Positions 2,235-11,323 of a stretch of DNA of 64,000 bases are shown one piece after another; the stretch's first letter is position 1; each line of letters begins with the position of its first letter. A program made the translations under genes and the position numbers. Where the stretch lies: contig NZ_JACOQL010000001.1 of assembly GCF_014490725.1 (NCBI RefSeq), positions 744,001-808,000 of the forward strand, written 5' to 3'. A model generated the notes under the pieces. The model had not been told where the DNA came from. It searched no databases and worked only from the letters and a program-made list of their open reading frames with translations. The DNA is from Paracoccus amoyensis. Lineage in GTDB: Bacteria > Pseudomonadota > Alphaproteobacteria > Rhodobacterales > Rhodobacteraceae.

Positions 2235-5200
2235 ATGGCACGTTTCTTTATCGACCGACCCGTTTTCGCCTGGGTGATCTCGATCCTGATCATGGGGATC
2301 GGGATTTTGTCGATCATGACATTGCCGATTGCGCAATATCCGCAAATCGCCCCGCCATCGGTTTCGGTCAGCGCCACCTATCCGGGCGCGTCGGCAGAGA
2401 CGGTTTCCAATACGGTGACGCAGATCATCGAACAGGAAATGACCGGGCTGGATGGCTTGCGCTATATGTCCTCGAGTTCCACCTCGGCGGGGACATCCTC
2501 GACCACGCTGACGTTCGAGACAGGCACCGACGCCGACATCGCGCAGGTTCAGGTGCAGAACAAGCTGTCACAGGCGACCGCGTTGTTGCCCGAAGAGGTG
2601 CAAAGACAAGGGATCACAGTCGAAAAAGCCTCATCCAGCTTCCTGATGGTGATTGGTCTTATCGGGGATGAGAATTACGATCAGACCGACCTTTCGGATT
2701 ATATGGTATCAAACCTTGTGGATGATATCAGCCGGATCGAAGGCATCGGCAGCGTCGAGGTGTTTGGCGCCCAATATGCGATGCGCATCTGGCTGGATCC
2801 GTCCAAACTGGCCGCATATGAGATTTCGCCATCGGACGTGGTTGGTGCGGTGTCGGCTCAGAACACCCAGATTTCGGCAGGTGCGTTCGGCACCTTGCCC
2901 ACGGTTCCGGGGCAACAGCTGAATGCGACCGTTACCGCGCAATCGCTGTTGTCGACGCCCGATGATTTCCGCCAGATCGTTATTCGCGCCGAAGAAGACG
3001 GCGGCCTGGTTCTGCTGCAGGACGTTGCGCGGATCGAGATCGGGGCAGAAAACTACGCGACTGACGCAACCTATAACGGACGTCCGGCAACGGGGATGGC
3101 GCTTAGCCTTGCACCGGGCGCAAACGCGCTGGACACGGCCGAACTGGTCAAAGAACGCATGGTCGAATTCGCGGAATTTTTCCCCGAAGGCATGGATTAT
3201 GTGATCCCCTTCGATACCTCTCCCTTCGTGGAAATTTCGATTGAAGAGGTGGTCAAGACGCTGATCGAGGCCATCGTGCTGGTGTTCCTGGTCATGTATC
3301 TGTTCCTGCAGAACTGGCGCGCGACGCTGATCCCGACGCTGGCCGTGCCGATCGTTCTGCTGGGCACGTTCGGGATCATGGCGATGTTCGGCTTTACCAT
3401 CAACACGCTGACCATGCTGGCCATGGTGCTGGCCATCGGCCTGCTGGTCGATGACGCCATCGTCGTGGTCGAAAACGTCGAGCGGATCATGGAAGATGAG
3501 GGGTTACAGCCGCGCGATGCGACCCGCAAATCCATGGGTCAGATTACCGGTGCGCTAATCGGCATCGCGCTGGTGCTGTCTGCGGTGTTCGTGCCAATGG
3601 CGTTCTTCCCCGGCTCGACCGGCGTGATCTATCAGCAATTCGCCATCACCATTGTGTCGGCCATGGGGCTTTCCGTGGTGGTCGCGCTGACCCTGACACC
3701 CGCGCTGTGCGCATCCTTGCTGAAAGCCAAGGGGCATGGTGAAAAGCGCGGCTTCTTTGGCCTGTTCAACCGCAATTTCGACAGGGTTTCGGACGGATAC
3801 ACCGGGCTTGTCGGCTGGCTGGTGCGCCGGCCCCTGCGGACATTGGTGGTGTATGGAGTCATGGGCGCGGTGATGGTGCTGTTGTTCCTGCGCACACCAG
3901 AAGGCTTCCTGCCGGATGAAGATCAGGGGATCATGTTCGTTCTGGTGCAAGGCCCGACGGGGGCAACGACCGAGCGCACGGCCGCCGTGATCGACCAGAT
4001 CGAAGACTACTTCATGACGCAGGAAAAGGACTCGGTCGAATCCATGTTCGGTGTCGCCGGGTTCAGTTTCTCGGGGATGGGGCAGAACGTGGGCATGGCG
4101 TTCGTGCGGTTGAAGGACTGGGATCAACGTCCCGATCCGTCGCAATCGGTGCAGGCCATTGCGGGCAGGGCATTCCCGGCCCTGAGCGGCATTCGCGATG
4201 CCATGGTTTTCCCGATCGTCCCGCCGTCGGTCATTGAATTGGGCAACGTGTCCGGCTTTGACTTCTATCTGCAGGCGCGGGGCGGTCAGTCGCATGAACA
4301 ATTGCTGGATGCGCGCAATCAGTTGATGGGCATGGCGTCACAAAGCCCGCTGATCGCGCAAATCATGCCCTCAGGGCTGGAAGATGCGGCGCAATACCGT
4401 CTGAATATCGACTGGCGTGAAGCGGGTGCGATGTCGGTGACGGCGACCGACGTGGCCAACTTGCTGCAGATCGCGTGGACCGGGGCTTATGTGAATGACT
4501 TCATCGACCGGGGCCGCATCAAAAAGGTTTATGTGCAGGGCGAGGCGGATTCCCGGGCCGTGCCCAGCGATTTTGAAAAATGGCGCGTGCGGAATGCTGG
4601 TGGGGAATTGGTGCCCTTTTCGAACTTTGCGAAGGGCGAATGGACTTACGGACCGCAGGGCCTGAACCGCTATAACGGTATTCCGGCGATGCAGATTCAG
4701 GGCGGCCCGATTCCGGGCGTCAGTTCGGGCGAAGCGATGAACGAGATGGAGAACCTGGCAAGCCAGTTGCCGCAGGGGTTCGACATCGCATGGACGGGTC
4801 TTTCGCTGGAGGAACAATCCTCGGGCGATCAAACGACCCTGCTTTATACCCTGTCGCTGGCAGCCGTGTTCCTGTGTCTGGCGGCGCTGTATGAAAGCTG
4901 GTCAATCCCGCTTGCGGTTATTCTGGTCATGCCCATTGGTATCCTGGGCGCACTGATCGGGGCTTTTCTTGGCAAATTCGACAATGGCGTCTTCTTCCAG
5001 GTTGGCCTGCTGACGGTGATCGGTCTGACCGGCAAGAACGCCATTCTGATCGTGGAATTTGCCCGTGAACAGTCCGAGTCTGGGGTGCCGCTCTATCGCG
5101 CCGTGGTCGAGGCTGCGCGCCAGCGTTTCCGCCCGATCATCATGACCTCGATTGCCTTCTCTCTGGGGGTTCTGCCGCTGGTATTGTCCACTGGCGCGGG

Positions 5201-5363
5201 TGCGAATGGCCGGAACGCAATCGGCGCGACCGTGCTGAGCGGGACTTTGGCGGCGACGGCATTCGGTATCCTGTTCGCGCCGCTGTTCTATGTGTTGATG
5301 CGCCGCCTGTTGGGACGTGGCGACAAATACGAGGATGAACCGGAAACAGCACCCACGACATAA
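2235..5363 (+). CDS. RND multidrug efflux transporter permease (AcrB/MexB, HAE1 family)
   Basis: A full-length 1042-residue proton-driven inner-membrane exporter. The N-terminus (MARFFIDRPVFAWVISILIM) is the typical first transmembrane helix. FPEGMDYVIPFDTSPF and the following TM2 region are typical of HAE1 pumps, and AIGLLVDDAIVVVENVER in TM4 carries the paired Asp residues of the proton relay. The second half repeats the layout (GLTGKNAILIVEFA in TM10). Two large periplasmic loops give the porter and docking domains. Substrates cannot be read from the sequence; HAE1 pumps typically export drugs, detergents and aromatic compounds. It pairs with the adaptor just upstream. No TolC/OprM-type channel gene is nearby, so the pump probably borrows one encoded elsewhere. 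Confidence 0.95.
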   Translation: MARFFIDRPVFAWVISILIMGIGILSIMTLPIAQYPQIAPPSVSVSATYPGASAETVSNTVTQIIEQEMTGLDGLRYMSSSSTSAGTSSTTLTFETGTDADIAQVQVQNKLSQATALLPEEVQRQGITVEKASSSFLMVIGLIGDENYDQTDLSDYMVSNLVDDISRIEGIGSVEVFGAQYAMRIWLDPSKLAAYEISPSDVVGAVSAQNTQISAGAFGTLPTVPGQQLNATVTAQSLLSTPDDFRQIVIRAEEDGGLVLLQDVARIEIGAENYATDATYNGRPATGMALSLAPGANALDTAELVKERMVEFAEFFPEGMDYVIPFDTSPFVEISIEEVVKTLIEAIVLVFLVMYLFLQNWRATLIPTLAVPIVLLGTFGIMAMFGFTINTLTMLAMVLAIGLLVDDAIVVVENVERIMEDEGLQPRDATRKSMGQITGALIGIALVLSAVFVPMAFFPGSTGVIYQQFAITIVSAMGLSVVVALTLTPALCASLLKAKGHGEKRGFFGLFNRNFDRVSDGYTGLVGWLVRRPLRTLVVYGVMGAVMVLLFLRTPEGFLPDEDQGIMFVLVQGPTGATTERTAAVIDQIEDYFMTQEKDSVESMFGVAGFSFSGMGQNVGMAFVRLKDWDQRPDPSQSVQAIAGRAFPALSGIRDAMVFPIVPPSVIELGNVSGFDFYLQARGGQSHEQLLDARNQLMGMASQSPLIAQIMPSGLEDAAQYRLNIDWREAGAMSVTATDVANLLQIAWTGAYVNDFIDRGRIKKVYVQGEADSRAVPSDFEKWRVRNAGGELVPFSNFAKGEWTYGPQGLNRYNGIPAMQIQGGPIPGVSSGEAMNEMENLASQLPQGFDIAWTGLSLEEQSSGDQTTLLYTLSLAAVFLCLAALYESWSIPLAVILVMPIGILGALIGAFLGKFDNGVFFQVGLLTVIGLTGKNAILIVEFAREQSESGVPLYRAVVEAARQRFRPIIMTSIAFSLGVLPLVLSTGAGANGRNAIGATVLSGTLAATAFGILFAPLFYVLMRRLLGRGDKYEDEPETAPTT

Positions 5364-5383: not shown

Positions 5384-5424
5384 ATGGCGCAGCCTTCGTT
5401 TGAAAGCTGCGCCATTTCTGTTTT
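5384..5424 (+). terminator. Intrinsic terminator after the RND pump gene
   Basis: A perfect 10-bp stem (ATGGCGCAGC at 5384-5393 with GCTGCGCCAT at 5406-5415), a 12-base loop and a T-rich tract (TTCTGTTTT), starting 20 bases after the pump stop codon. It separates the efflux operon from the LysR gene. Confidence 0.75.
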
Positions 5425-5451: not shown

Positions 5452-6339
5452 ATGATCGACAAGTTGGAAATGTTTCTGGCCGTTGCCAAAGAGCAGCATT
5501 TTGGTCGTGCTGCTGCCAGCCTTGGAATTACGCAACCAACGCTGTCAGCCGGGATCAAGCAGCTTGAGGATCAACTGGGTGTCCTTTTGATCTTTCGCGG
5601 ATCGCGATTTGGCGGCCTGACGCCAGAAGGCAAGATTGCCCTGAACTGGGCGCGGCGCATCGTCGGGGATAGTCGGCAACTGCGCGAAGAAATGCGTGCC
5701 ACGCGTCACGGCCTGACCGGTCAATTGCGGATCGCCGCCATTCCAACCGCGCTGACATGGGCCGCACGTCTGTCGGCCCGGTTTGGGCAGCGTCACCCCA
5801 ATGTCAGCTTCACCATCATGTCCAAAACCTCGATCGAGATTCTGCAAATGCTGGACGATCTGGATGTCGATGCGGGAATTTCCTATCTGGACAATGAACC
5901 GCTGGGCAAGGTCAGCACTGTTTCGCTTTATGAAGAGCGTTACATGCTGGTCTGCGATCCGGCATCGGCTTTCGCGGAACATCAGCAAGTCGGCTGGGCA
6001 GACCTGAACGGCTGCCGTTTATGCCTGCTGTCGACGAATATGCAGAACCGACGGATCATCAATCGCAATCTGGCAAATGCAGGCGTGACCCCTCAGGTTG
6101 CGGTCGAATCCGCCTCGACGGTCGTGCTGGTCGCGCATGTGATGGAAGGAGGTTGGCTGACCATTCTGCCAGAAGATATCGCGCGCTTTCTGACGCAGGG
6201 TAAGGATCTGCGGCTGATCCCGATGCAGGACGGTGGCGCGGGGCACAGCGTCGGCCTGGTCGCGCCGTGGAGAGAGCCACATACACCCGTTCTGGACGCA
6301 TTGTTGACCGAGGCGCGGCGGATGGTTTCTGATAGATAA
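5452..6339 (+). CDS. LysR-family transcriptional regulator, probable FdsR of the formate dehydrogenase operon
   Basis: A 295-residue LysR regulator. The N-terminal winged helix-turn-helix is clear (KLEMFLAVAKEQHFGRAAA, then LGITQPTLSAGIKQLEDQLG), followed by a linker helix and an effector domain starting near LRIAAIPTALTW. It lies directly upstream of, and in the same direction as, fdsGBACD, the position of the FdsR-type regulator in other bacteria with this operon. An activating role with formate or formate-derived effectors is therefore inferred from context only. The ATG at 5452 is preferred because AGGAG sits 10 bases upstream; the GTG at 5443 would have almost no spacing. Two dyads lie at and just after its stop codon, in front of fdsG. 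Confidence 0.85.
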   Translation: MIDKLEMFLAVAKEQHFGRAAASLGITQPTLSAGIKQLEDQLGVLLIFRGSRFGGLTPEGKIALNWARRIVGDSRQLREEMRATRHGLTGQLRIAAIPTALTWAARLSARFGQRHPNVSFTIMSKTSIEILQMLDDLDVDAGISYLDNEPLGKVSTVSLYEERYMLVCDPASAFAEHQQVGWADLNGCRLCLLSTNMQNRRIINRNLANAGVTPQVAVESASTVVLVAHVMEGGWLTILPEDIARFLTQGKDLRLIPMQDGGAGHSVGLVAPWREPHTPVLDALLTEARRMVSDR

Positions 6340-6348
6340 TTTCTATCA
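6330..6348. promoter_or_regulatory. Perfect inverted repeat over the fdsR stop codon, possible second LysR site
   Basis: TGATAGA at 6330-6336 is mirrored by TCTATCA at 6342-6348 with a 5-base spacer. It overlaps the stop codon of the LysR gene and lies 10 bases upstream of the larger dyad at 6359. LysR regulators often occupy two adjacent sites, so this could be the second. It is too short, and lacks the T-run, to be a good terminator. Confidence 0.35.
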
Positions 6349-6358
6349 TCCAACGAAA

Positions 6359-6383
6359 CAACGATATTGATTTCGTATCGTTG
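6359..6383. promoter_or_regulatory. Candidate LysR operator upstream of fdsG
   Basis: A perfect 8-bp inverted repeat, CAACGATA (6359-6366) and TATCGTTG (6376-6383), around a 9-base spacer. The centre obeys the LysR T-N11-A rule (T at 6365, A at 6377). It begins 20 bases after the regulator's stop and ends 41 bases before the fdsG start, which is where an activator site is expected. Binding is inferred from symmetry and position. Confidence 0.6.
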
Positions 6384-6424
6384 CGGTTGTTTTCTTTGTG
6401 GTGGAATTTAGTGAAAGGCCAGCC

Positions 6425-6901
6425 ATGCATTTCAATGCGCCAGCCCCGACGTCCGAGGATATTCGTGCGATCGTCACGCCTCTGACCGCGTTGGAAGGAC
6501 CACTGTTGCCCATGCTGCATGCGTTGCAGCAGGAATTCGGGTTCATTCCCCAGGGTGCCGTTCCGGTTCTGGCCGATCTGCTGAACCTTGGTCGTGCCGA
6601 GGTGCATGGGGTCATCAGCTTTTATCATGATTTCCGTGATGCGCCTGCGGGTCGGCATGTGTTGAAGATCTGCCGGGCCGAAGCTTGTCAGTCGATGGGC
6701 TGCGATGCGCTGGCGCAGGCGACCCTGGACAAGCTGGGCATCGGCTGGCACGAAACCACCCGCGATGGCGCGGTGACGGTAGAGCCGGTTTATTGTCTGG
6801 GCATGTGCGCCTGTGCGCCTGCCGTCATGCTGGACGGACAGGTTGTCGCGCGCGTCGATACGGCAAGGATGCAGCACCTGCTGGACGAGGTTGGCGCATG
6901 A
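6425..6901 (+). CDS. fdsG: NAD-dependent formate dehydrogenase gamma subunit (NuoE-like, 2Fe-2S)
   Basis: A 158-residue thioredoxin-fold ferredoxin related to complex I subunit NuoE. It carries one 2Fe-2S cluster and, with FdsB, forms the NADH side of the cytoplasmic formate dehydrogenase. The ligands are visible as CRAEAC in the middle and CLGMC towards the C-terminus; VISFYHDF is a family signature. The ATG at 6425 follows AAAGG with 6-base spacing and begins MHFNAPAP; an in-frame GTG at 6398 has no such site. Its stop overlaps the fdsB start (ATGA at 6898-6901), so translation is likely coupled. Confidence 0.92.
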   Translation: MHFNAPAPTSEDIRAIVTPLTALEGPLLPMLHALQQEFGFIPQGAVPVLADLLNLGRAEVHGVISFYHDFRDAPAGRHVLKICRAEACQSMGCDALAQATLDKLGIGWHETTRDGAVTVEPVYCLGMCACAPAVMLDGQVVARVDTARMQHLLDEVGA

Positions 6902-8421
6902 AGATTTACGTCCCAATGGACAGCGCCGCCAAGGCCCTTGGCGCGGATGAGGTGGCCCGTGCCATCTTGCAGCACGCCGGGGCCCGTGGCTTGGATGTGC
7001 AGATGATCCGCAACGGCTCTTACGGGATGATCTGGCTGGAACCGCTGGTCGAAGTGGATCTGGGGCAGGGACAGGGGCGTCAGGCCTATGGCCCGGTCAC
7101 ACCTGCCGACGTTCCGGCCCTTCTGGAAGGCAAGTTGCAAAGCCTTGGGCCGGTTCAGGAAATCCCGTTCCTTGCCGGTCAAACCCGACTGACCTTTGCC
7201 CGCTGCGGCGTGATAGACCCGCTGGATCTAGATGATTACGAAGCACATGGCGGTCTTGTCGGGGTGAAGCGGGCCATTGCAATGGGCGCCCGCGATATCT
7301 TGCAAGAGGTCGTGGACAGCGGTCTGCGTGGTCGCGGCGGCGCGGGCTTTCCGACCGGGATTAAGTGGAAAACCGTGGCGGATGCGGATGCGGCACAGAA
7401 ATATATTGTCTGCAACGCGGATGAGGGCGACAGCGGCACATTCGCGGACCGCATGATCATCGAAGGGGATCCCTTCAGCCTGATCGAGGGCATGGCCATT
7501 GCCGGGATCGGCGTTGGCGCGACGCGTGGCTATGTCTATCTGCGGTCCGAATATCCAGACGCGATCAGGGTGCTGACCGATGCGGTGGATATCGCGCGGG
7601 CGCGCGGGTTGCTTGGTCCCAATGTGCTTGGCTCACCCCATGCCTTCGACATCGAGGTTCGGACAGGGGCCGGGGCCTATGTCTGCGGCGAGGAGACCGC
7701 GCTGCTGAATTCGCTGGAGGGCAAGCGTGGCACTGTCCGCGCCAAGCCGCCTTTGCCTGCACTGGAAGGGTTCATGGGCAAACCCACGGTGGTCAACAAT
7801 GTCATCTCGCTGGCGACGATCCCCGTGATCTTTGAAAAAGGCGCCGGGCACTATGCCGATTTCGGGCTGGGCCGGTCGCGCGGCACGGTCACGCTGCAAA
7901 TCGCGGGTAACATCAAACATGGCGGCCTGTATGAGACAGCTTTCGGCGTGACCTTGGGACAGGTGGTGAATGAGATCGGCGGCGGCACAGCCTCGGGTCG
8001 TCCGGTCAAGGCGGTGCAGGTGGGCGGTCCGCTTGGGGCCTATATGCCGGTGGAAAAATTCGACACGCCCATTGGCTACGAGGAATTTGACCAGCAGGGT
8101 GGCCTGATCGGCCATGCCGGTCTGGTCGTCTTTGACGATACTGCCGATATGCTGCACATGGCCCGCTTCGCGATGGAGTTCTGTGCCGTGGAAAGCTGCG
8201 GCAAATGCACGCCCTGCCGAATCGGTGCGGTGCGTGGCGTCGAAACGATCGACCGGATTGCGCAGGGCGACACCGCTGCAATCGAACTGTTGACCGATTT
8301 ATGTGATACAATGCGCGACGGGTCGCTTTGTGCGCTTGGCGGGTTTACCCCTTATCCGGTGATGTCGGCGCTGACACATTTCCCCGATGACTTTGCGACC
8401 CAGAAAGAGGCAGCCGAATGA
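6898..8421 (+). CDS. fdsB: NAD-dependent formate dehydrogenase beta subunit (NuoF-like, FMN and 4Fe-4S)
   Basis: A 507-residue diaphorase subunit that passes electrons from the Fe-S chain through FMN to NAD+. The first ~110 residues are the extra thioredoxin-like domain of FdsB proteins, and the rest matches NuoF. Visible motifs are the NADH/FMN glycine-rich loop (GLRGRGGAGFPTG), NADEGDSGTFADR, GAGAYVCGEETALLNSLEG and the 4Fe-4S ligands in ESCGKCTPCRIG with a later Cys in DGSLCALGG. The start is the ATG overlapping the fdsG stop; the longer open frame running back into fdsG is not credible. It overlaps fdsA by 4 bases (ATGA at 8418-8421). Confidence 0.95.
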   Translation: MKIYVPMDSAAKALGADEVARAILQHAGARGLDVQMIRNGSYGMIWLEPLVEVDLGQGQGRQAYGPVTPADVPALLEGKLQSLGPVQEIPFLAGQTRLTFARCGVIDPLDLDDYEAHGGLVGVKRAIAMGARDILQEVVDSGLRGRGGAGFPTGIKWKTVADADAAQKYIVCNADEGDSGTFADRMIIEGDPFSLIEGMAIAGIGVGATRGYVYLRSEYPDAIRVLTDAVDIARARGLLGPNVLGSPHAFDIEVRTGAGAYVCGEETALLNSLEGKRGTVRAKPPLPALEGFMGKPTVVNNVISLATIPVIFEKGAGHYADFGLGRSRGTVTLQIAGNIKHGGLYETAFGVTLGQVVNEIGGGTASGRPVKAVQVGGPLGAYMPVEKFDTPIGYEEFDQQGGLIGHAGLVVFDDTADMLHMARFAMEFCAVESCGKCTPCRIGAVRGVETIDRIAQGDTAAIELLTDLCDTMRDGSLCALGGFTPYPVMSALTHFPDDFATQKEAAE

Positions 8422-11323
8422 AGGATTTCATCATTCCGCAATTCCCGCCCGGCGATGATCGCGACATGGGCACGAAAATCGGCACCGGTGCGCCGGTATC
8501 GCTGGTGATCGACGGGATCGCCGTCACGGTGCCTGCGGGCACGTCGGTGATGCGCGCCGCTGCCGAAGCGGGCGTTGACGTGCCCAAACTGTGCGCCAGC
8601 GACAATATAGAAGCCTTCGGGTCTTGTCGGTTGTGTGTGGTTCAGATTGATGGCCGGCGTGGCACGCCTGCCTCCTGCACGACGCCGGTTGCCGAGGGAA
8701 TGGTGGTCCACACGCAATCTGAAAAACTGCGCAAGCTACGCCGCGGCGTCATGGAGCTGTATATCAGCGATCACCCGCTGGACTGCCTGACCTGTTCGGC
8801 CAATGGTGATTGCGAATTGCAGGATGCGGCGGGGGCCGTGGGGCTGCGCGATGTGCGCTATGAAGCGCCTGTGGGCGGCAGGCTGGACAACCATTTTGCC
8901 CGCCGCAACGGGGCCGAGGTGAATGCCCTTTATATCCCCAAGGACGACAGCAATCCCTATTTCAGCTATGACCCGGCGAAATGTATTGTCTGCTCCCGCT
9001 GCGTGCGTGCCTGCGAGGAAGTGCAGGGCACCTTTGCGCTGACCATCGAAGGGCGCGGATTTGACAGCCGTGTCAGTGCGGGCGCGATTGGCGACGATTT
9101 CCTGACCTCGGATTGTGTCAGTTGCGGCGCTTGCGTGCAGGCTTGCCCGACCGCGACCTTGCAGGAAAAATCGGTGATCGAGCTGGGAACGCCGCAGCGC
9201 TCGATCATCACGACCTGCGCCTATTGCGGCGTTGGCTGTTCGTTCAAAGCTGAACTGAACGGCGATCAACTGGTGCGCATGGTCCCTTACAAGCACGGCA
9301 AGGCAAACCGGGGCCATAGCTGTGTCAAGGGGCGCTTTGCCTATGGCTATGCCAAGCACAAGGATCGCATCCTGAACCCGATGATCCGCAACAGCATTGA
9401 TGAGCCGTGGCGAGAGGTGGGTTGGGACGAGGCCATGGCCTTTGCCGCCAGCCGCATCGCGACATTCAGAAGCATCATGGCCGCCAGTCCATCGGCGTCA
9501 TCACCTCCAGCCGCTGCACCAATGAGGAAACCTATCTGGTGCAGAAACTGACCCGCGCAGTCTTTCGCAACAACAATACCGACACCTGCGCACGGGTCTG
9601 CCATTCGCCGACCGGCTATGGTCTGGGCAAGACCTATGGCACCTCGGCCGGGACGCAGGATTTTGATAGCGTTGCGGATGCGGATGTCGTCGTTATCATC
9701 GGCGCGAATCCGACGGATGGGCACCCGGTCTTTGCCTCTCGCCTGAAGGCACGGCTGCGTCAGGGGGCGAAGCTTATCGTGATCGACCCGCGCCGCACGG
9801 ATATCGTGCGTTCCGCCCATGTCGAGGCGGCCTTTCACCTGCCACTGAAACCCGGCACCAATGTGGCGGTCGTGACGGCAATGGCGCATGTGATCGTGAC
9901 CGAAGGGCTGTTCGACGAAGCCTTTATTCGCGAACGCTGTGACTGGGACGAATTTCAGTATTATGTGGATTTCGTCGCCGATCCTCGCCATTCCCCCGAA
10001 AACATCGAGGCAATGACCGGCGTCCCAGCCGATGATTTGCGACAGGCCGCGCGCCTTTATGCGACGGGCGGCAATGGGGCGATCTATTACGGACTGGGCG
10101 TCACCGAACATAGCCAGGGTTCGACGACCGTCATCGGCATCGCCAATTTGGCCATGCTGACCGGAAATATCGGTCGCGCGGGCGTGGGCGTGAATCCCTT
10201 GCGCGGGCAGAATAACGTGCAGGGCTCCTGCGATATGGGCAGCTTTCCGCATGAATTGCCCGGCTATCGCCACGTGAAACTGCCCGAGGTCCGGGCGATC
10301 TATGAAAACGCGTGGGGGGTGGAAATCGATCCCGAACCCGGCCTGCGCATCCCGAACATGCTGGATGCGGCGGTCGAGGGCACCTTTCGCGGGCTGTATT
10401 GTCAGGGCGAAGATATCTTGCAGTCCGACCCGGATACACACCACGTGGCCGCTGGCTTGCGGGCGATGGATTGCGTCATCGTCCATGACCTGTTCCTGAA
10501 TGAGACGGCAAATTACGCCCATGTCTTCCTGCCCGGTTCGTCGTTTCTGGAAAAGGACGGCACATTCACCAATGCCGAACGCCGCATCAATCGCGTGCGT
10601 CGCGTGATGGCGCCGCGCAACGGCTATGAGGATTGGGAAATCACCCAGATGCTGGCCAATGCGATGGGCGGAAACTGGACCTATACCCACCCGTCGCAGA
10701 TCATGGATGAAATCGCGGCCACGACGCCCAGCTTTGCCAATGTCAGCTATGAACTGCTTGAGGAGAAAGGCTCGGTCCAGTGGCCGTGCAATGGCTCTGC
10801 CCCCGAAGGCACGCCGATGATGCATGTCGATGGCTTTGTCAGCGGAAAGGGGCATTTCATGGTCACGGAATATGTCGCGACCGACGAACGCGCCGGGCCT
10901 CGCTTCCCCTTGCTGCTGACCACGGGGCGTATCCTGTCGCATTATAATGTGGGTGCGCAGACGCGGCGGACGGAAAATGTCGTCTGGCATCCCGAGGATA
11001 TATTGGAAATTCATCCTCATGACGCCGAACAGCGTGGCGTCAAGGAGGGGGATTGGGTGCGGCTGGCATCGCGGGCGGGCGAAACCACCCTGCGTGCGAC
11101 ACTGACGGACCGGGTTGCGGCGGGCGTGGTTTATACGACCTTCCATCACCCGACGACGCAGGCTAACGTCGTGACCACGGATTTTTCGGATTGGGCCACG
11201 AACTGCCCGGAATACAAGGTCACAGCGGTGCAGGTCAGTCCTTCGAATGGTCCGTCGGACTGGCAGGAAAGCTATAACGCGCAGGCCGAATTGGCCCGGC
11301 GGATTTTGCCAGCGGCGGAATGA
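8418..11323 (+). pseudogene. fdsA: NAD-dependent formate dehydrogenase alpha subunit (molybdenum catalytic subunit), frameshifted
   Basis: This is the catalytic subunit that oxidises formate to CO2 at a bis-MGD molybdenum centre, but it reads in two frames: 8418 to about 9467, then about 9470 to 11323. Restoring one missing base near 9468 gives a continuous protein of about 968 residues, normal for FdsA. Order of domains: N-terminal 2Fe-2S (CASDNIEAFGSCRLC), His-Cys cluster (HPLDCLTCSANGDC), two 4Fe-4S motifs (CIVCSRCVRAC, CVSCGACVQAC), the Mo-domain cluster (CAYCGVGC), then the molybdopterin domains. The catalytic position is Cys-His (ARVCHSPTG, about residue 395), so it is not a selenoprotein. 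As written, frame 1 ends at 9551 and lacks the active site. Every other domain and the downstream genes are intact, so a sequencing error or a very recent mutation is likely. Confidence 0.9.

Follow-up and report, generated by a model that had tools for sequence, protein, structure and literature searches.

The window analysed here, a stretch of 64,000 nucleotides from Paracoccus amoyensis, contains a gene for a LysR-type regulator followed, on the same (plus) strand, by the fds genes of an NAD-linked formate dehydrogenase (Table 1). Both domains of the regulator, the N-terminal HTH (PF00126, 64.1 bits) and the LysR substrate domain (PF03466, 128.4 bits), scored above their cut-offs. The NCBIfam model ranking first for it was that of the CynR-type LysR regulators, but the score, 150 bits, was far below the cut-off of 277, and by this test the protein is thus not a CynR. 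No solved structure matched the regulator at E≤1e-20. The fdsA counterpart in a relative (L202) is a single open frame of 968 aa; the split seen here may reflect either a truly broken gene or an assembly indel. With fdsA in two frames, the fds operon may be non-functional in the strain sequenced. Upstream, between the LysR gene and an open frame of 1042 aa (2235-5363) that by eye resembles an RND pump, we noted a perfect 8+8 dyad at 5386-5413, followed by a T-rich stretch. It looks like a terminator, and is absent from the list of our terminator scan, which was restricted to loops of 3-8.

Table 1. Coordinates of genes and predicted regulatory elements in the window.
Feature	Coordinates	Strand	Basis
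LysR-type regulator gene, FdsR-like, 295 aa	5452-6339	+	Pfam HTH_1 and LysR_substrate above cut-offs
Site 1, dyad TGATAGA-N5-TCTATCA, predicted high-affinity recognition site (IR1)	6330-6348		Sequence and conservation
Conserved block ACG-N2-A-N3-C-N2-TATTGAT, predicted activation site (IR2 position), reaches the -35 box	6353-6371		152 loci
Highlighted dyad, IR3 position; left part in the conserved block, right arm in the promoter spacer	6359-6383		Alignment
Predicted -35 box TTGATT	6367-6372	+	TTG invariant in 152 loci, TTGAT being part of the anchor
Predicted weak -10 box TTTTCT, 17 bp past the -35 box	6390-6395	+	TAATCT-like there in the distant Paracoccus clade
fdsG, formate dehydrogenase gamma subunit, 158 aa	6425-6901	+	NCBIfam NF004638 equivalog, 234.8 bits, cut-off 198
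fdsB, operon gene 2	6898-8421	+	Open frame; 83% identical to the gene after fdsG in L202
fdsA, two frames in the present assembly, break near 9458	8418-11323	+	Open frames

An earlier note on this DNA had drawn attention to a perfect T-N11-A dyad in front of fdsG (the highlighted dyad), with a second perfect dyad 10 bases before it, and the letters bear out both. In the highlighted dyad, CAACGATA (6359-6366) and TATCGTTG (6376-6383) flank a 9-base spacer, the T-N11-A pair being T6365 and A6377. The second dyad (site 1), TGATAGA-TAATT-TCTATCA, is perfect over 7+7 bases and is of the T-N11-A type too (T6333 and A6345). Since it takes in the stop codon of LysR, TAA at 6337-6339, it is not strictly downstream of the gene. 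The gap between the dyads spans 6349-6358, their centres are at 6339 and 6371, and GATA-N9-TATC is common to both.

A lone dyad with arms of 8 is weak evidence, because the window has 22 perfect dyads with arms of at least 8 and spacers of 3-12, against 6-18 (mean 11.5) in eight shuffles. When the 105 bases of 6320-6424 were shuffled 5000 times, an arm-8 dyad appeared in 1.1% of the shuffles, and an arm-8 dyad together with a second, arm-7 dyad in one (0.02%). The 3.73-Mb genome has 17 copies of GATA-N9-TATC (7 of a control pattern), two of them at the present locus, and only one of the 17, at 6331-6347, is an exact GATAG-N7-CTATC. With one mismatch allowed, the latter is neither rarer nor commoner than its control (70 versus 69).

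We compared the stretch behind the LysR gene in 186 loci, made up of 106 genome rows (G050 and G051 being of other families) and 80 named loci, among which there are repeats. The LysR places compared were at least 47% identical; G007, G031, G130 and paralogues of 33-42% identity were left out. Eight of the rows are Paracoccus loci with names, and one or more of these duplicate another row (L046 is the same as G003), so that the totals of 163 and 161 used below count some loci twice. A codirectional fdsG was found within 1.4 kb behind LysR in 163 of the 186 loci. The comparison revealed a composite of fixed spacing, GATAG-N7-CTATC-N5-ACG-N2-A-N3-C-N2-TATTGAT, made up of site 1 and the conserved block of Table 1. 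A 14-letter form of it, GATNG-N7-CNATC-N18-ATTGAT, fitted 87, 48, 20 and 6 of the 163 fdsG-linked loci with 0, 1, 2 and 3 mismatches, respectively, and two fitted worse; among the 23 loci without an adjoining fdsG, there was 1 mismatch in two and 3-7 in 21. The alignment anchor took in most letters of site 1 and ATTGAT, which favours those columns and not the others. Outside the anchor, A22 (99%), C23 (99%), G24 (95%), A27 (87%), C31 (88%) and T34 (75%) stand out among 152 distinct segments, and conservation drops off past position 6373. The block by itself is not a clear dyad.

We grouped the aligned loci into 57 of a close Paracoccus clade, 41 of a distant Paracoccus clade, 44 other Rhodobacterales-like and 10 Rhizobiales loci, leaving out the eight named Paracoccus loci, G050, G051, neighbourhoods without fdsG, loci with more than three mismatches and identical segments. 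The expectation that dyad arms would be kept in relatives held for site 1: in the close clade a mean of 6.11 of its 7 pairs, mostly anchor letters, could form, compared with at most 3.68 in slid registers. Its T-N11-A letters, typical of a LysR operator, are present in 57/57, 41/41, 44/44 and 10/10 loci; because this T and A belonged to the anchor, the fit of 161 of the 163 loci within three mismatches is the stronger fact. The arms tend to covary (GATAG with CTATC, GATTG with CAATC), as expected for a site bound by a protein dimer. In shuffles that ignore relatedness, arm pairing in the distant Paracoccus clade (5.63) exceeded the maximum of 500 row shuffles (5.59), and in the other groups it was just short of the maximum (6.11 versus 6.14, 5.20 versus 5.23 and 6.30 versus 6.70). 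Site 1 and the LysR stop codon share bases in 113 of 161 loci; several registers occur, as do all three codons (TAA, TAG and TGA), so the DNA site is kept regardless of where the protein ends.

The same expectation failed for the highlighted dyad. All eight of its pairs are present in one of the 57 close loci, namely the window itself, and in 0/41, 0/44 and 0/10 loci of the other groups; slid registers gave 1.18-3.23 pairs, a range that takes in the close-clade mean of 3.04 of 8. At the place of the right arm, 8 of the 57 close loci have TATC, and GATA and TATC occur together in 6 of the 57, in none of the 41 distant Paracoccus loci, in 1 of 44 Rhodobacterales-like and in none of the 10 Rhizobiales loci. 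What remains of the right arm in the close clade is just an A (74%) and a T (63%). In the distant clade, 36 of 41 loci have CTATC at offsets 45-49, a register shifted by one base, so the right half appears to be a real but lineage-dependent element. The alignment of relatives ruled out the highlighted dyad as the conserved site. As far as these alignments go, its perfect symmetry is special to this species, and site 1 is the deeply conserved anchor. The earlier note is right on the kind of element and on its place, but it chose the less conserved of the two dyads.

The highlighted dyad might instead act in RNA, as a terminator or attenuator hairpin between fdsR and fdsG. Indeed, 6359-6383 is among the hits of the terminator scan, its tail being T-rich. 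However, the predicted fold of 6350-6410 was little better than those of shuffled sequences (z -0.81, with 41 of 200 shuffles as good), the hairpin stem has only three G-C pairs out of nine, and its right arm is not conserved, all of which makes this reading extremely improbable. Judged by the same z score and G-C count, 6359-6383 was rejected as an intrinsic terminator, that is, a stable G+C-rich hairpin followed by a T run. In all likelihood, the neighbouring LysR has its operator at 6330-6383, in front of fds.

We then used the composite as a search pattern of 22 fixed letters, allowing up to 3 mismatches, with the reversed pattern as a control. It was found in 80 of 125 Paracoccus genomes (control, 0); Paracoccus matches with 3 mismatches on contig 9 of G005 and contig 29 of G019 were left out of the gene-neighbour tally. 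The window's own genome has no further target with the full composite, the fds site being the only one. Class-wide, a search of 385 alphaproteobacterial genomes gave 17 places, those of the window's own genome and of G050 among them (control, 0). Of these, 13 precede fdsG, 1 the beta subunit gene of a tungsten-type formate dehydrogenase, 2 an MFS transporter gene after LysR, and 1 neither; the class-wide match without a formate gene behind it is L237. Phylum-wide, 39 places were listed in 37 of 398 genomes (control, 1 genome). Thirty of the 39 were examined, and 27 of them lie before fdsG and 3 before the tungsten-type beta subunit gene; the nine places outside this tally include G742, G650 and G408 (the last tallied class-wide as L242). 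G742 and G650 are the two phylum-wide matches beyond Alphaproteobacteria, with 3 mismatches each.

Among 21 further genomes, 20 of which have LysR away from fdsG, 18 have the composite. Of its 20 places there, 13 precede the tungsten-type beta subunit gene, 3 fdsG, 2 FdhD and 1 an MFS transporter gene, and at L224, directly behind LysR, nothing was recognised downstream. The three further genomes without a match were G145, G146 and G051; G145 and G146 have a looser copy (4 of 22 letters mismatched) before fdsG. The scores of the MFS transporters are below the cut-offs of the top models (lactate or oxalate/formate type). On plasmids, the fds locus of S. meliloti has 2 mismatches and that of P. 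pantotrophus 5 (the distant-clade form), the Methylobacterium aquaticum and Azospirillum brasilense plasmid fds loci have no good copy (at best 7 of 22 mismatched), and the Azoarcus, Halomonas and Thiodictyon plasmid loci have no composite within 7 mismatches. By this pattern search, the composite is highly specific to formate dehydrogenase genes, but not universal.

Several of the loci found have features of their own. Composites before the tungsten-type formate dehydrogenase often follow a MoeA-like gene (L203, L205, L206 and 10 of the 20 loci L212-L231), which may encode a dedicated metal insertase of that enzyme. Genome G027 has two LysR-fdsG loci (L014 and L162) with one composite each; in L272, L275 and L276, LysR is on the strand opposite to fdsG, and the composite is still ahead of fdsG. 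In genome G156, two composites (L230 and L231, 3 mismatches each) lie ahead of FdhD-like genes, and the FdhD-like protein of L231 scores above the NCBIfam cut-off for FdhD.

LysR relatives were found at E≤1e-40 in 106 of the 125 genomes of the genus, and the composite in 0 of the 19 Paracoccus genomes without such a match. Seventeen of the 19 also have no fdsG at E≤1e-15, and the other two have no composite in their fdsG locus. Among the 106 LysR-bearing genomes, 26 have no composite within 3 mismatches, many of them carrying the looser form of the distant clade. A regulator other than the neighbouring LysR could be proposed to bind the composite, since it is kept before formate dehydrogenase genes also in genomes that have the LysR gene at another place; in G018, G067 and G106 it precedes both fdsG and the tungsten-type operon, in neither case behind LysR. 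We consider this very improbable, given that a T-N11-A dyad is typical of LysR proteins, that the composite is missing in all 19 LysR-less Paracoccus genomes, including the two with fdsG, and that LysR adjoins it in most loci examined. What the comparison itself establishes is the composite with its fixed spacing, its conservation, and its near-exclusive link to formate dehydrogenase, even where the regulator is elsewhere. Since the LysR gene in the window is codirectional with fdsG, its self-regulation through this operator is not evident.

In the window, the highlighted dyad overlaps the predicted -35 box. A scan for consensus sigma-70 promoters found no promoter, and the putative -10 box is poor. 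Transcription starting near 6402 would put site 1 at about -63 and the highlighted dyad at -31. For the OccR regulator of Agrobacterium, PMC5002191 describes sites in the occR-occQ intergenic region, with IR1 at -64, IR3 at -33 and an IR2 that shares a half-site with IR3, and states that IR3 is occupied without inducer. By analogy with OccR, the conserved block would be the inducer-state site and the highlighted dyad the no-inducer site. Because its position matches that of IR3, the highlighted dyad is probably not the activation site.

Alternatively, both dyads could be full recognition sites of equal standing, the highlighted one being the activation site. Both are perfect in this species, with GATA-N9-TATC in common and centres 32 bp (about three helical turns) apart. 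We find this rather unlikely, as the highlighted dyad has all its pairs in just one of 57 close loci and takes the position of the OccR site used without inducer. The earlier note had read the two dyads as recognition and activation sites of FdsR. A two-part operator of the neighbouring LysR before fds is retained in our reading, and the role that the note gave to the highlighted dyad is, on the OccR analogy, probably wrong.

In the model that we prefer, 6330-6383 is the predicted fds operator-promoter, bound by the FdsR-like LysR encoded just upstream, and in this model as a whole, drawn from sequence comparison, we have high confidence. What we infer within it is that this LysR binds, that formate acts as the effector, where transcription starts, and that a dimer moves from one site to another. 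One dimer would sit on site 1, at about -63, and a second would adjoin the first, over the -35 box; the second site adjoins the predicted -35 box at a fixed spacing and in helical phase with site 1. The half-sites would be GATAG (6331-6335) and CTATC (6343-6347), which form the recognition site, ACG (6353-6355) and CGATATTGAT (6362-6371), with a fifth, TATCG (6376-6380), in this species. With formate, the promoter-side dimer would assist RNA polymerase from half-sites three and four (the block 6353-6371); in the absence of formate, it would occupy half-sites four and five (the highlighted dyad) and cover the -35 box.

The best reading of the element is an operator-promoter of LysR type that serves the fds operon. 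It is of an ordinary kind; the comparison defines it sharply and adds a second formate dehydrogenase as a predicted target. A broader proposal, which in our judgement is evenly balanced between right and wrong, is that a single regulator with a single 41-bp operator defines one formate regulon across Rhodobacterales, Rhizobiales and part of the other Alphaproteobacteria. Two different NAD-linked formate dehydrogenases would belong to it, one of the molybdenum type (fds) and one of the tungsten type (MeFDH1-like); some species would add FdhD and a carboxylate transporter of the MFS family. Gain or loss of the fifth half-site would tune how tightly the promoter is shut off without formate. The results correct which of the two dyads matters most. 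They define the operator of formate oxidation genes in many Alphaproteobacteria precisely enough for it to be searched for, which may be of use in annotating formate use and in building formate-responsive promoters, and they predict joint control of molybdenum- and tungsten-type formate dehydrogenases. Among the titles and abstract openings listed in our searches of open-access literature, none describes this operator in Alphaproteobacteria.

Among known systems, FdsR of Cupriavidus necator (Ralstonia eutropha), the regulator of fdsGBACD, is linked to the same operon for an NAD-linked formate dehydrogenase and responds to formate, according to PMC7057948, and formate is for this reason the effector that we propose here. 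The tungsten-type operon that forms the second target has an alpha subunit (L203) matching 7vw6 chain A with 1348 bits, which makes it closely homologous to MeFDH1, a tungsten formate dehydrogenase, and tungsten-type by homology; the window's own genome has no MeFDH1-like alpha subunit at E≤1e-200. The fdsR gene of C. necator is in divergent order, whereas the LysR gene of the window is codirectional with fds, and the likeness between the two is one of description. On the Azoarcus plasmid, the one betaproteobacterial fds locus examined, no LysR is annotated in the stretch and there is no composite within 7 mismatches. In Methylosinus trichosporium OB3b, a LysR gene named fdsR lies directly before fdsG, as described in PMC3615186, and the likeness here is one of gene order. 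The OccR operator offers the parallel in architecture, with sites predicted here at -63 and -31 and the conserved block between them. It differs in that little of the last half-site is left in the close Paracoccus clade and in that the LysR gene of the window is codirectional with its target.
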